Virus record (IMG/VR): IMGVR_UViG_3300037245_002806
Coordinates: 1 to 64,000 of that record
Reading direction: 5' to 3' (one strand)
DNA length: 64,000 nt
Source of the DNA: a virus
In this document: positions 15,658 through 56,483 of the stretch, piece after piece
Position numbering within the stretch: position 1 is the first letter of the stretch
Layout: each line of letters opens with the position of its first letter
The notes under the pieces: generated by a model
Told to the model about the DNA's origin: nothing
Database searches by the model: none
Seen by the model: only the letters and a program-made list of their open reading frames with translations
Made by a program: the position numbers and the translations under genes

Positions 15658-16076
15658 ATCGAGACCTCTGCCTGGCACTGCTCGCACACGATAAAACCGC
15701 CAATGTCGGGCTCTTTCGGATCGAACGCCTCAACCGTGGTGCACTCCTCGGCGCATGGTACTTTCTCGTAACACTCCGGGCACCCGTGCACGTGCTCCCG
15801 CCGCACTTCTATATCACCACCCGCCCGCGCTTCCAAGTCGATGTGTCGAGACCACCCCGTATGCCCGCAATCGGTGCAATAATATTGCCGTTCATAAAAC
15901 GAATTCCGCTGCCCCCCTTGGAATCGTTTGGGTTGTCGCATCTTCCCGGTAAGCACCACGCGATCACGCTGCCCGCCGCCAACCTGGGCTCGTTTCATAT
16001 ACCCAATGGTTCCCCATTTTTTGCGACACTTCGAACACCGAAAGAAAGTCGGTTGCCCGGTACCTGTCCCGCTCAC
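15651..16076 (-). CDS. Zinc-ribbon protein
   Basis: 141 residues from a GTG overlapping the TGA of the HNH gene. Four CxxC pairs (CSKC, CTDC, CPEC, CEQC). A GATATAGA element is read in frame as GGDIEV. Function unknown. Confidence 0.65.
   Translation of the reverse strand: MSGTGTGQPTFFRCSKCRKKWGTIGYMKRAQVGGGQRDRVVLTGKMRQPKRFQGGQRNSFYERQYYCTDCGHTGWSRHIDLEARAGGDIEVRREHVHGCPECYEKVPCAEECTTVEAFDPKEPDIGGFIVCEQCQAEVSIC
15808..15825 (-). repeat. GATATAGA dispersed element, copy 3
   Basis: Minus strand GGCGGGTGGTGATATAGA inside the zinc-ribbon gene, read as GGDIE. Confidence 0.75.
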
Positions 16077-16711
16077 AGCGCCCCCAGAGTCTTTATCCGC
16101 CGGTTGGTCTCGATGGCTTTAAACCCGATCAACTTCCTTTGCCTGGCTTTCCGGTTGGCTTGCTCCGCCGTCTTTGTCTTGTGGCAGAAATGGCAAAGCG
16201 TCTGTACGTTGGAAAGCTCGAAGCTGCCGCCCTCGTCCAGAGATTCGATGTGGTCTGCCTGCCACAAGCTCGGGCAAGTGCCATGCCATTCCGGTTTTAC
16301 GCTAAAACCTTGGTCCTTTATAACTTGTAGGGCTTTCTGCATCGCCGGCCACTGTCTAATATTGTTTATCCGCCGGCGTAGCTCGGTGCAATCGATCCCA
16401 CACCCACGGCACACCCCCCGATCCCGTTCGTGCACCTTGCTCCGTAGGAACTGGTTATCCGATACAAAGAAATATGCTTCCATGCACTCGTCTGAACACC
16501 ACGACCGCCGGCGTTTGGGGCATGGATCAAGGCAAAGCCGGCACCGTAGCGGTGGCCTCGGTAGTAGCCGGTGCTTGCATTTGGAGCACTTTTTTAGATT
16601 CCACGGCATCCATTTTCCGCAATTCGGGCAGTGAGTGCTCGTTCTGTTCGGAACTGGGAGCACTTCGCCCCGCTTTAACTGCACCAACCGTTGCCTGGCT
16701 TTATCTTTCAT
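16073..16711 (-). CDS. HNH endonuclease with N-terminal zinc ribbons
   Basis: 212 residues. N-terminal CPNC/CSKC and CRLC/CSDEC ribbons (about 28-75) precede an HNH core: ERDRGVCRGCGIDC, then LWQADHIESLDEGG and LSNVQTLCHFCHKTKT. The DH pair plus the final cysteines and histidine provide the beta-beta-alpha metal site. HNH enzymes nick or cut DNA; a free-standing homing or packaging-associated nuclease is plausible. Confidence 0.85.
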   Translation of the reverse strand: MKDKARQRLVQLKRGEVLPVPNRTSTHCPNCGKWMPWNLKKCSKCKHRLLPRPPLRCRLCLDPCPKRRRSWCSDECMEAYFFVSDNQFLRSKVHERDRGVCRGCGIDCTELRRRINNIRQWPAMQKALQVIKDQGFSVKPEWHGTCPSLWQADHIESLDEGGSFELSNVQTLCHFCHKTKTAEQANRKARQRKLIGFKAIETNRRIKTLGAL

Positions 16712-33988: not shown

Positions 33989-34206
33989 TGGCCCCCCTCT
34001 GCCCGCCAGCGCCGGCACCGCTCCAAAACCAAGGCGTCAACCGCTTCCCGCGCGGCCTTCCGGGTTGGGAACACCGTTGGAATCTCGACCCCGCATGCCC
34101 CGTTGGTGACCCACCCGCGGCCCGTCCGGAGTTTTTCGATAAAGTGGTCCGGCCCGTATCCCGCCCACCGGTTAGATAAAACGTGCATATCATGGTTGTC
34201 TAGCAT
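33985..34206 (-). CDS. Hypothetical protein
   Basis: 73 residues; ATG overlaps the upstream TAA (TAATG). Contains RTGRGWVTNGACGVEIPTVF and a helical end. Function unknown. Confidence 0.6.
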   Translation of the reverse strand: MLDNHDMHVLSNRWAGYGPDHFIEKLRTGRGWVTNGACGVEIPTVFPTRKAAREAVDALVLERCRRWRAEGGQ

Positions 34207-34439
34207 TATCCCTCGCTCCAAGGCCGGAAGCTATGCCGGGTGGTATCGTCGCACCTTACATGCCCGAGGTGGTCGCACCCGCAATCCCCGGTATGTACTA
34301 CAGTCCACCGGCCATCCATTCTCACGTGCATGTGCCCGCAATCCCGGCACGGCCCGGAATCGACTCCCATGCCACCGACGACGCCGCGATTTTCTACTTC
34401 GCCCCCGCACATCCTGCACTCAACTCGCTCGTTGTCCAT
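34206..34439 (-). CDS. Leaderless zinc-finger protein
   Basis: 77 residues (MDNERVECRMCGGEV). Cysteines CRMC, CRDCGH and CGCDH make one or two zinc sites. The ATG is six bases after a -10 box, with no ribosome site, as in the other early leaderless genes. Function unknown. Confidence 0.65.
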   Translation of the reverse strand: MDNERVECRMCGGEVENRGVVGGMGVDSGPCRDCGHMHVRMDGRWTVVHTGDCGCDHLGHVRCDDTTRHSFRPWSEG

Positions 34440-34445
34440 AACCTA

Positions 34446-34473
34446 ATAATAGCATATCAGGCGGATAAAGCAA
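34446..34473 (-). promoter_or_regulatory. Early leaderless promoter, copy 3
   Basis: TTGCTT, 16 bases, TATTAT, TAGGTT, ATG on the minus strand. Same geometry as the others with a weaker -35. Confidence 0.7.
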
Positions 34474-34513
34474 GTCTTTTATAATTGTTTTTTTGGATTT
34501 ATTCCGGTGGGTT

Positions 34514-34535
34514 GGGAGCCCCCCGTGGGGCTCCC
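34514..34535 (-). terminator. Terminator-like hairpin
   Basis: Perfect GGGAGCCCC / GGGGCTCCC stem right after the stop of the 34542 gene and before the next promoter. No U-run on the minus strand. Confidence 0.5.
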
Positions 34536-34541
34536 TCTTTC

Positions 34542-34799
34542 CTACTCCTTACGCCGTCTCGAGATCGAGCACCGTTCTACGATGTCAACGATCTCCGAAT
34601 GGCCCTGGCGCCACCGTCTGACTAGGTGGATTACCCGACACGAAGGTCCGGCGCTCTTCGTGTGGCTCTTGGCGAAAAAGCGGCCTTCGTCCGTGTTTTG
34701 GACCCCACGCTCCCAATGACAGGCAACGCACCTGGCAAAGTAAGGCTCTGTAAGAGTAGGCTTTTTGGCGGTCGGTTCTTGTAGCAACGTTTTTATCAC
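34542..34799 (-). CDS. Zinc-binding hypothetical protein
   Basis: 85 residues from GTG overlapping the HNH gene's TGA, with AAGGGG ahead. CVACHWERGVQNTDEGRFF resembles a small zinc motif. Function unknown. Confidence 0.55.
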   Translation of the reverse strand: MIKTLLQEPTAKKPTLTEPYFARCVACHWERGVQNTDEGRFFAKSHTKSAGPSCRVIHLVRRWRQGHSEIVDIVERCSISRRRKE

Positions 34800-35311
34800 C
34801 CCCTTTCGGCTTTCTGCTTTCTGTGGTTGGAGTTGTAGCGCCGGCTGGCCGCCTTGCATCGGTCGCAACGGCAACCTCGGCTCCATTCGCTAGTCGTCCC
34901 ATGGTTGCGGAGATCGCTCGGGCTGTATTTTTTCTTCCGCTTCCGGTTGTAATCCCCATGTGCTCTCGTACAATCCGGACATCTGCACCCGAGCCGATAT
35001 CCACTTGTGCTCCCATGCGTAGCTGTCCGCTCGTGCTTAAATCCCGCGTCCCCCCTCTCCTCGTGCGTCCTGCCGTGACAGGATCGGCATAGCAACATGC
35101 ACTTTGCCACCTCGGCCAGGAAACGATCGAGCCCGTAGGCTACTCCAGAGGATAAAATGCCAAAGCTCTTTGTTTTGGGATCGACGTGGTGGGTGACTAA
35201 CCCTTCCTTCGTCCCGCACCTGGTGCACTTTCCGCCGAGCAAAAGGATCGCCAGCGCCGTCCGGAAAGCTCGCCGGCGGTGTTTCCAGGCTTGGGTTTTG
35301 GAGGTGGGCAT
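34796..35311 (-). CDS. HNH endonuclease with C-terminal GCRC repeats
   Basis: 171 residues from MPTSKTQ (AAAGGACAG upstream). HNH core: GGKCTRCGTKEGLVTHHVDP then KCMLLCRSCHGRTHEERG. Two C-terminal repeats of the form HGSTSGYRLGCRCPDC and HGTTSEWSRGCRCDRC are probable DNA-recognition knuckles, as seen in free-standing phage HNH enzymes. It follows a structured intergenic region, so a mobile intron or homing element is worth considering. Confidence 0.8.
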   Translation of the reverse strand: MPTSKTQAWKHRRRAFRTALAILLLGGKCTRCGTKEGLVTHHVDPKTKSFGILSSGVAYGLDRFLAEVAKCMLLCRSCHGRTHEERGDAGFKHERTATHGSTSGYRLGCRCPDCTRAHGDYNRKRKKKYSPSDLRNHGTTSEWSRGCRCDRCKAASRRYNSNHRKQKAERG

Positions 35312-35363
35312 CTGTCCTTTAAGTACCATATAAGCCGGTAACTTGCAAGGTTTTTATGGAAGT

Positions 35364-35501
35364 CAGCCGGGTGGTTTATGCCCGGCTGCTCCCCAATGGT
35401 GGGCGATCGACAGCGACGATGACGCCCTCAAGGGGGGGCCTTGGGGCAAGCTCTGGGAATAGCCGCCGATCGCCCCTTTGCGCAGGAGGTTTCCCAGAGC
35501 T
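35364..35501 (-). ncRNA. Candidate structured RNA with pseudoknot
   Basis: No gene in 35312-35499. Interlocked perfect pairings: GGGCGATCG at 35401-35409 with 35467-35475 (9 bp), and AGCTCTGGGAA at 35449-35459 with 35491-35501 (11 bp), a pseudoknot topology. Inside is a 9-bp hairpin with a single-base bulge (35424-35447), and at the far end an 8-bp hairpin (35364-35388). The flanking genes and a possible promoter (35524-35551) suggest minus-strand transcription. No known class recognised; an attachment or regulatory DNA site is the alternative. Confidence 0.5.
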
Positions 35502-35598
35502 AACGCTCAATCTGCATCGCAAGATAGTAGCACATTAAGCAAACGCCGCAAGCTAGAAACCCTATGGAATAGGCTTTGCTTTCTACGCGAAAAACCAC
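35500..35598 (-). CDS. Possible 32-residue membrane peptide
   Basis: GTG start (VVFRVESKAYS) overlapping the upstream gene by 16 bases; hydrophobic IGFLACGVCLMCYYLAM. No ribosome site, so translation would rely on coupling. Confidence 0.3.
   Translation of the reverse strand: MVFRVESKAYSIGFLACGVCLMCYYLAMQIER
35524..35551 (-). promoter_or_regulatory. Possible promoter for the structured RNA/HNH region
   Basis: TTGCGG, 16 bases, TACTAT on the minus strand; predicted start near 35517, just ahead of the pseudoknot region. Confidence 0.35.
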
Positions 35599-35939
35599 AC
35601 CGCCGCGGCCAACGCCGCCAACGATCCGACCACCGCCACGAATAGCGCCATGCTGCCCGGTCTTCGGTCCATTTGCTCGAAGTCCATGGCCACCGTGTCG
35701 AGGTTCACCTTTTCCTCGGGATACCAGTCCCGCTCTTTCGCCTGGGGATACTCGTCCTCCAGTCGTATCCAATAGATTCTCCCGCCGTCGGCACACCCGC
35801 CGCGCCCGAGCACCTTGCCCGCCGCGGTGTAGTTAATGCCCGGCTTGGGGTTTATGTCCACCCGAACCAGATCCCCGATCTTAAATCTGGCCCCTTCCAT
35901 TGTTTTGCAGTGTTCCACGTACCCTTTTTGCATCTCCAT
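35583..35939 (-). CDS. SH3-like domain protein with C-terminal membrane segment
   Basis: 118 residues. FKIGDLVRVDINPKPG and GKVLGRGG...IYWIRLEDEY suggest a small SH3/KOW-like barrel; the C-terminus (SMALFVAVVGSLAALAAAVWFF) is a membrane anchor. ATG preceded by AAAGGGG. Function unknown. Confidence 0.6.
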   Translation of the reverse strand: MEMQKGYVEHCKTMEGARFKIGDLVRVDINPKPGINYTAAGKVLGRGGCADGGRIYWIRLEDEYPQAKERDWYPEEKVNLDTVAMDFEQMDRRPGSMALFVAVVGSLAALAAAVWFFA

Positions 35940-37514: not shown

Positions 37515-37520
37515 ACTTAT

Positions 37521-37549
37521 AATATAGCAACATTATGGGGTTTAGTCAA
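37521..37549 (-). promoter_or_regulatory. Early leaderless promoter, copy 4
   Basis: TTGACT, 17 bases, TATATT, ATAAGT, ATG. The spacer is nearly identical to copy 2 at 33.7 kb. Confidence 0.85.
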
Positions 37550-37595
37550 GAGAAAAATGGGGTTTATTTGGATTTATTTTACCCCCCCGTGAGCC

Positions 37596-37643
37596 AAAAA
37601 CCCCGGCGCCGTGGATCTGATCTTGTGGCCGGCGCCGGGGTTT
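37596..37643 (-). terminator. Strong rho-independent terminator
   Basis: Perfect 13-bp stem AAACCCCGGCGCC / GGCGCCGGGGTTT with TTTTT after it on the minus strand. It insulates the 37514 promoter from the upstream early transcript. Confidence 0.8.
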
Positions 37644-37699
37644 CGATCTATACATACCAAGTATCGCCCGTAGTGGACTAGGATCCACTCATCGCTTGT

Positions 37700-38008: not shown

Positions 38009-38037
38009 AATATACGCTTTCTATAGGGCTTTGTCAA
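38009..38037 (-). promoter_or_regulatory. Early leaderless promoter, copy 5
   Basis: TTGACA, 17 bases, TATATT, ATAAGT, ATG on the minus strand. Confidence 0.85.
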
Positions 38038-55883: not shown

Positions 55884-56390
55884 TTAAACCTCCTCGTAGG
55901 CTCGTTTGAGCCAACCGTTTAGGAAAACTTGCTTCTCTGGCTCCACCGCTGCCAAAAGCCGGTAAAAGCCTGCTTGCTCGCTCCGAATCGAGGTGATCAA
56001 CGGCACCTCGCTTGCCTTTTCTGCCGCATGGAACGATATCGGCCCCAAGGCGCCGTCGTCATCTACCCAATGGCAACCGTTCGCCCGCAATGCCCGTTGG
56101 AAGATTCGATGTGCTTGCCCCGGCCCCGTGTTTACGGCCATGTCGAAAACTTTGGTCGCAAGGCTTTGGGGCTCAAGCTGCCCGTACCCGTACCGTTCCC
56201 AAAAATGTACTTTGTAAAGCTCCACCGCGTCGGTCCTGGTAATCTCTCGCGGGTGTCTGCTGTCCCCTATCCGGTGGAGAAACCGTGCCGAAATCCCGTA
56301 ATTAGTCGCCCCGCCAGGATCTTTCGGGTGATCGATGTATCCGCCCTCGTTCTTTAAAACCGTCTTGATCGCTTCGTCGAATTCGCTCAT
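55884..56390 (-). CDS. GH108-type endolysin
   Basis: 168 residues. VLKNEGGYIDHPKDPGG and ATNYGIS (catalytic E15) is the GH108 muramidase signature; the C-terminal half (FDMAVNTGPGQAHRIFQRAL, DDDGALGPIS) matches the peptidoglycan-binding part of these enzymes. No signal peptide, so release needs the adjacent holin. ATG with GGAGAAAAAG ahead. Confidence 0.9.
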   Translation of the reverse strand: MSEFDEAIKTVLKNEGGYIDHPKDPGGATNYGISARFLHRIGDSRHPREITRTDAVELYKVHFWERYGYGQLEPQSLATKVFDMAVNTGPGQAHRIFQRALRANGCHWVDDDGALGPISFHAAEKASEVPLITSIRSEQAGFYRLLAAVEPEKQVFLNGWLKRAYEEV

Positions 56391-56483
56391 TTTTCTTTTT
56401 CTCCGAGAGCGCCGGCGGGCGCGCGCTATCACGCCAATTAGATAGGACGTTAAAGCCCCGCCGGCGCCTCTGCCCGAGCAGGT

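Follow-up and report, generated by a model that had tools for sequence, protein, structure and literature searches.

An interlocked structure upstream of an HNH endonuclease gene in a tailed phage, a candidate pseudoknotted mRNA leader

RNA structures at the translation start restrain the expression of phage homing endonucleases, as described for I-TevI, Aeh1 mobE and segB (PMC3014915, PMC2988022). In seg43(25) of Aeromonas phage 25, a very stable hairpin was found that does not cover the ribosome binding site (PMC2988022). In the known leaders of homing endonuclease genes, a simple hairpin covers or adjoins the ribosome binding site, and several of these leaders contain late promoters. A pseudoknot is found in another phage mRNA leader, the T4 gene 32 operator, which lies 67 nt upstream of the start codon (PMC3014915).

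The element analysed here has traits of both systems. Like the leaders of Aeh1 mobE, T4 segB, I-TevI and seg43(25), it would form a folded RNA immediately ahead of a homing endonuclease gene of a phage; as in Aeh1 mobE, the endonuclease is of the HNH family, and as with the seg43(25) hairpin, the ribosome binding site is left uncovered. In contrast to the hairpin leaders, however, its helices interlock and leave about 52 nt between the structure and the start codon, and no promoter was recognised. With the operator of T4/T2 gene 32 it shares the H-type pseudoknot arrangement in a putative phage mRNA leader, tens of nucleotides before the start codon, but its helices are longer (11 and 14 bp) and the downstream gene does not encode a single-strand-binding protein.

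The DNA comes from a tailed phage whose virus record (IMGVR_UViG_3300037245_002806) spans 99,905 bases; positions 1 to 64,000 of the record form the window studied here. Judged by the primase-helicase protein, its nearest named relatives are the Tunturiibacter phages Tunturi_3 and Tunturi_4 (about 25% identity). The element lies within a 253-base gap (35330-35582) between a 118-aa gene and the HNH gene, both on the minus strand like all genes neighbouring the element (Table 1). Gaps in this genome are usually short, as remarked before: the median intergenic gap is 12 bases (home-made gene caller), and the element falls within the intergenic part, which makes up 9% of the genome. No coding signal was detected in any frame of the 253-base gap.

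Table 1. Positions of the element, its parts, neighbouring features and a dispersed 19-mer, numbered as in the record
Feature	Position	Strand	Basis or remark
Whole structured element	35364..35501	minus	read 5'->3' from 35501 to 35364; pairings, shuffles, fold z-score, non-coding gap
Helix A, 5' arm AGCUCUGGGAA	35491..35501	minus	perfect 11-bp pairing to 35449-35459
Helix A, 3' arm UUCCCAGAGCU	35449..35459	minus	inside the loop of helix B
Helix B, 5' arm GGGCGAUCGGCGGC	35462..35475	minus	inside the loop of helix A; pairs with 35401-35414
Helix B, 3' arm GCUGUCGAUCGCCC	35401..35414	minus	14 bp on minus (2 G-U), 9 bp on plus
Hairpin D	35423..35448	minus	10 bp, one bulged A, within the loop of helix B; minimum-energy folds
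Hairpin E	35364..35388	minus	8 bp, arms 35364-35371 / 35381-35388; HNH start codon follows after about 52 nt
Linker to HNH start codon	35312..35363	minus	contains Shine-Dalgarno-like AAAGGA
HNH endonuclease gene, 171 aa	34796..35311	minus	phrog_4234 E=9.6e-25; PF01844; codon usage
Upstream gene, 118 aa, function unknown	35583..35939	minus	probable co-transcript with the element
Sigma-70-like promoter TTGACT-17-TATATT	37521..37549	minus	gap upstream of the element
19-mer GGCGGGTGGTGATATAGAA, in the window	15807, 22287, 28228, 30778, 35951, 47772, 52317, 57018	minus	
19-mer GGCGGGTGGTGATATAGAA, beyond the window	67258, 75460, 80893, 85558	minus	

The two interlocked perfect pairings of 9 and 11 bp claimed in an earlier note on this DNA are present exactly where it placed them, and helices A and B interlock. 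The perfect core of helix B comprises 35401-35409 / 35467-35475. On the minus strand, this core continues with G-U, C-G, G-U, G-C and C-G pairs to a 14-bp form (GGGCGATCGGCGGC / GCTGTCGATCGCCC), while the plus strand has two A-C mismatches at the same positions. The two hairpins noted earlier were recovered as well, E as an 8-bp pairing and D as a prediction by folding, where D competes with a 6-bp pairing (35441-35446 / 35391-35396). A and B have the geometry of an H-type pseudoknot, with a loop 1 of 15 nt, a junction of 2 nt and a loop 3 of 34 nt that includes hairpin D; these lengths allow a pseudoknot to form.

The same extension bears on the strand, which the earlier note had left uncertain on the ground that the pairings are symmetric, with the neighbouring genes favouring minus. 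Full symmetry does not hold, since helix B reaches 14 bp on the minus strand only. The preference for minus stands: it is favoured by the longer helix B and by the minus orientation of all neighbouring genes, although hairpin E, lengthened by two G-U pairs in the plus reading alone, counts against it.

Helix B also bears on whether the locus acts as DNA, either through inverted repeats bound by a protein or as a recombination or cleavage site of the HNH nuclease. Homing endonuclease genes lie near their own target sites, and helix B contains the palindrome CGATCG. We nevertheless consider a DNA-level element quite improbable, because a one-strand G-U extension is meaningful only in RNA, the interlocked order of the arms follows no obvious DNA-binding logic, and HNH homing targets normally lie within a neighbouring conserved gene.

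Of 2,000 dinucleotide shuffles of the 253-nt gap, 0 contained two interlocked perfect helices with lengths of 11 bp or more and 9 bp or more. This gap-only figure overstates the case, since the search for such features extended everywhere, and whole-genome shuffles serve as the correction. A 9/11 interlock appeared somewhere in 14 of 300 shuffled 100-kb genomes (about 5%), and the genome holds 7 interlocked 8/8 pairs where 4.7 are expected; together with the GC-rich sequence, these counts speak for chance pairing in a decaying non-coding stretch. Against it stand the strand-specific 11/14-bp form, which arose in 1 of 400 shuffled genomes, the location in the small intergenic part of the genome, the two further hairpins and the fold energy z-scores of -3.85 (minus) and -3.90 (plus). 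Chance is thus an improbable explanation in our judgement, and the structure is probably, though not certainly, under selection.

The 138-nt minus-strand RNA is predicted to form nested folds equally well with either helix (-65.3 kcal/mol with B only, -65.1 kcal/mol with A only). When the A arms are kept free, the B fold amounts to -62.5 kcal/mol, and formation of helix A contributes -18 to -19. Using the standard literature value of about 9.6 for the pseudoknot penalty, the combined pseudoknot is estimated at about -71 to -72 kcal/mol. Based on the energies of the A-only, B-only and combined forms, both a pseudoknot and a two-state switch appear feasible.

The HNH nuclease gene reported earlier as a neighbour of the element lies directly downstream on the same strand (34796-35311) and is putatively of homing type; an alternative in-frame start is the ATG at 35329. 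PF01844 scores above the cut-off, together with its neighbours in the frame, and the protein also matches other small phage HNH endonucleases, the phrog_4234 family being widespread in phages. The codon usage of the HNH gene and of two small downstream frames (34206-35311, minus) differs from that of the long phage genes, which suggests that the three form an acquired block. A second, different HNH endonuclease gene is located at 16073-16483 on the minus strand (PF01844, phrog_333 best), with an open frame that extends upstream. We rejected it as a further case of such a leader, since its apparent upstream gap is coding.

Relatives of the HNH protein are often located in tRNA arrays of phages, as in several of the records examined. 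Neighbourhoods of tRNA genes are a known habitat of free-standing homing endonucleases, for example T4 segB (PMC2988022). An independent gene for a trans-acting small RNA, with the HNH gene as an intruder homing near RNA genes, would agree with this setting and with a compact 138-nt structure more stable than its shuffles. Such a gene is unlikely, however: no promoter was found directly upstream of the element and no terminator of its own, ARAGORN called no tRNA or tmRNA there (window and rest of the record), and Rfam gave no match. A plausible source of a minus-strand transcript is the promoter at 37521..37549, in a stretch where the count of promoter-like sites equals chance.

How might the element act on the HNH gene? 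Its Shine-Dalgarno sequence and start codon lie outside A and B, and the predicted mean unpaired probability of the start region is 0.42-0.43 with either A or B formed. Because the start region is equally accessible in both cases, simple sequestration of the ribosome binding site does not describe the element. One alternative is a processing or insulation element, that is, an RNase site or a barrier in mRNA half-life which would keep the acquired gene apart from the operon before it, with no specific effect on translation. B and D would provide a long, near-continuous stem on the minus strand, and the homing endonuclease transcripts of segB, segG and Aeh1 mobE in T4-like phages undergo RNase E processing (PMC2988022). 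Yet the interlocked helix A would be superfluous for such a role, and we regard it as a minor possibility.

The reading we prefer, quite possibly correct though held tentatively, is that the element is a pseudoknotted or two-state 5' leader within a polycistronic minus-strand mRNA. It would tune how the HNH gene, probably an acquired, free-standing homing endonuclease gene, is translated or processed. The element would be transcribed as part of this mRNA; A and B would then either fold together into an H-type pseudoknot or be the mutually exclusive states of a switch, with hairpins D and E capping and following them. The folded leader may restrain endonuclease expression by hindering ribosome entry, by binding a protein or as a signal for processing or stability. 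As neither helix alters the predicted accessibility of the start region, the leader would have to act on the HNH start from a distance. Further results weigh against the preferred reading: no promoter directly upstream of the element, no similar leader in the other HNH homologues examined, and a 9/11 interlock in about 5% of shuffled whole genomes. If real, the element would add a pseudoknotted form to the restraining hairpins already described for phage homing endonucleases.

The distance between the HNH gene and the next gene, together with a Shine-Dalgarno sequence belonging to the HNH gene itself, agrees better with a 5' leader than with an RNA partnered with the HNH protein. The earlier note had pointed to ribozymes or guide-associated RNAs, and a new RNA of this type working with the HNH protein could draw on the pseudoknotted topology, the adjacent HNH gene and the lack of a known class. 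This suggestion found no support: the protein is an ordinary 171-aa phage endonuclease, no ribozyme or HEARO model matched, and the nearest HNH relatives examined have no comparable structure upstream. We therefore consider it extremely improbable. Very improbable, too, is that the element represents a novel class of structured RNA in phages, perhaps with catalytic activity or a protein partner, which moves with the HNH homing endonuclease as a mobile unit. The HEARO/omega-RNA of IscB/IsrB is likewise a structured RNA beside an HNH gene, but the element has no Rfam match to that model, and the 171-aa protein matches small HNH endonuclease families only, phrog_4234 best, whereas IscB/IsrB comprise about 350-500 aa with RuvC and HNH; this assignment was rejected.

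The statement that the element matches no class was confirmed by Rfam, which gave no match to it at the gathering threshold over the window and, up to E=10 over the element region, a chance gntR-DTE hit only. Known self-cleaving ribozymes (hammerhead, HDV-like, twister, pistol, hatchet) were rejected as no Rfam family model matched, and a group I or group II intron encoding the HNH protein was dismissed in the same way, the flanking open reading frames showing no split gene. A tRNA-like reading had been considered because helix B is followed by ACCA, the unit measures 79 nt and the HNH family occurs among tRNAs; it was discarded, with no T-arm and no ARAGORN or Rfam tRNA match.

DNA relatives of the element beyond chance were absent from the phage and plasmid collections, which may leave out near records. 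Among viral contigs, searches with the upstream protein, the exonuclease, the primase, the terminase and the HNH protein (identities up to 43%) led to no close relative, and the capsid protein recovered only a piece of the same virus, 100% identical, that lacks the element region. Scans of viral contigs for the two-helix pattern returned chance hits only, many of them similar to cyanobacterial GCGATCGC repeats; one 20-bp match, in contig L139, was rejected because it lies inside a DNA polymerase gene. A single-sequence covariance model found only itself. A contig that it scored at E=0.02 (L144) was rejected, having been pre-selected by the helix A pattern and having lost most of helix B. The search of genome contigs yielded one distant HNH only.

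A second interlocked leader was found in the same genome (82297-82410, minus), adjoining the capsid genes, in the gap 82303-82417 before the gene 81601-82302. Its stems are GGGGGTTGCCCC/GGGGCAACCCTC with inner ATGGTAGGTAGG/CCTACTTGCCAT. The apical loop TTCTTCCCGA forms 10 bp with the Shine-Dalgarno sequence TCGGGAAGGA of that gene, and the 3' arm region TGCCATGG pairs with its start codon CCATGGCA. Triple interlocks of this size arose somewhere in 18 of 400 shuffled genomes, while this one lies in a gap and on a Shine-Dalgarno sequence and start codon; no Rfam match was obtained. By its predicted pairings, it looks like a translation-control pseudoknot or switch, and as a second interlocked leader it supports in kind our reading of the element before the HNH gene as a leader. 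If both are real, they would suggest pseudoknots as a means of translation control in this phage lineage.

Further features of the genome were observed on the minus strand. A dispersed 19-mer, GGCGGGTGGTGATATAGAA, has all 18 of its 18 copies (at most 5 mismatches) on this strand, 5 of them perfect, versus 1-6 copies in mononucleotide shuffles. Many copies are placed in gaps immediately ahead of start codons, and others fall within genes, where they encode GGDIES-like residues; the placement recalls the start-associated sequences of cluster K mycobacteriophages. Within 37515-37677 and 38009-38037, a strong terminator (a 14-bp GC-rich stem, AAACCCCGGCGCCG, then TTTTT) and two good sigma-70-like promoters (TTGACT-17-TATATT and TTGACA-17-TATATT) belong to a leftward operon. 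At 56409-56467, a very stable 11-bp GC hairpin, GCGCCGGCGGG, ends just before the Shine-Dalgarno sequence of the gene starting at 56390.
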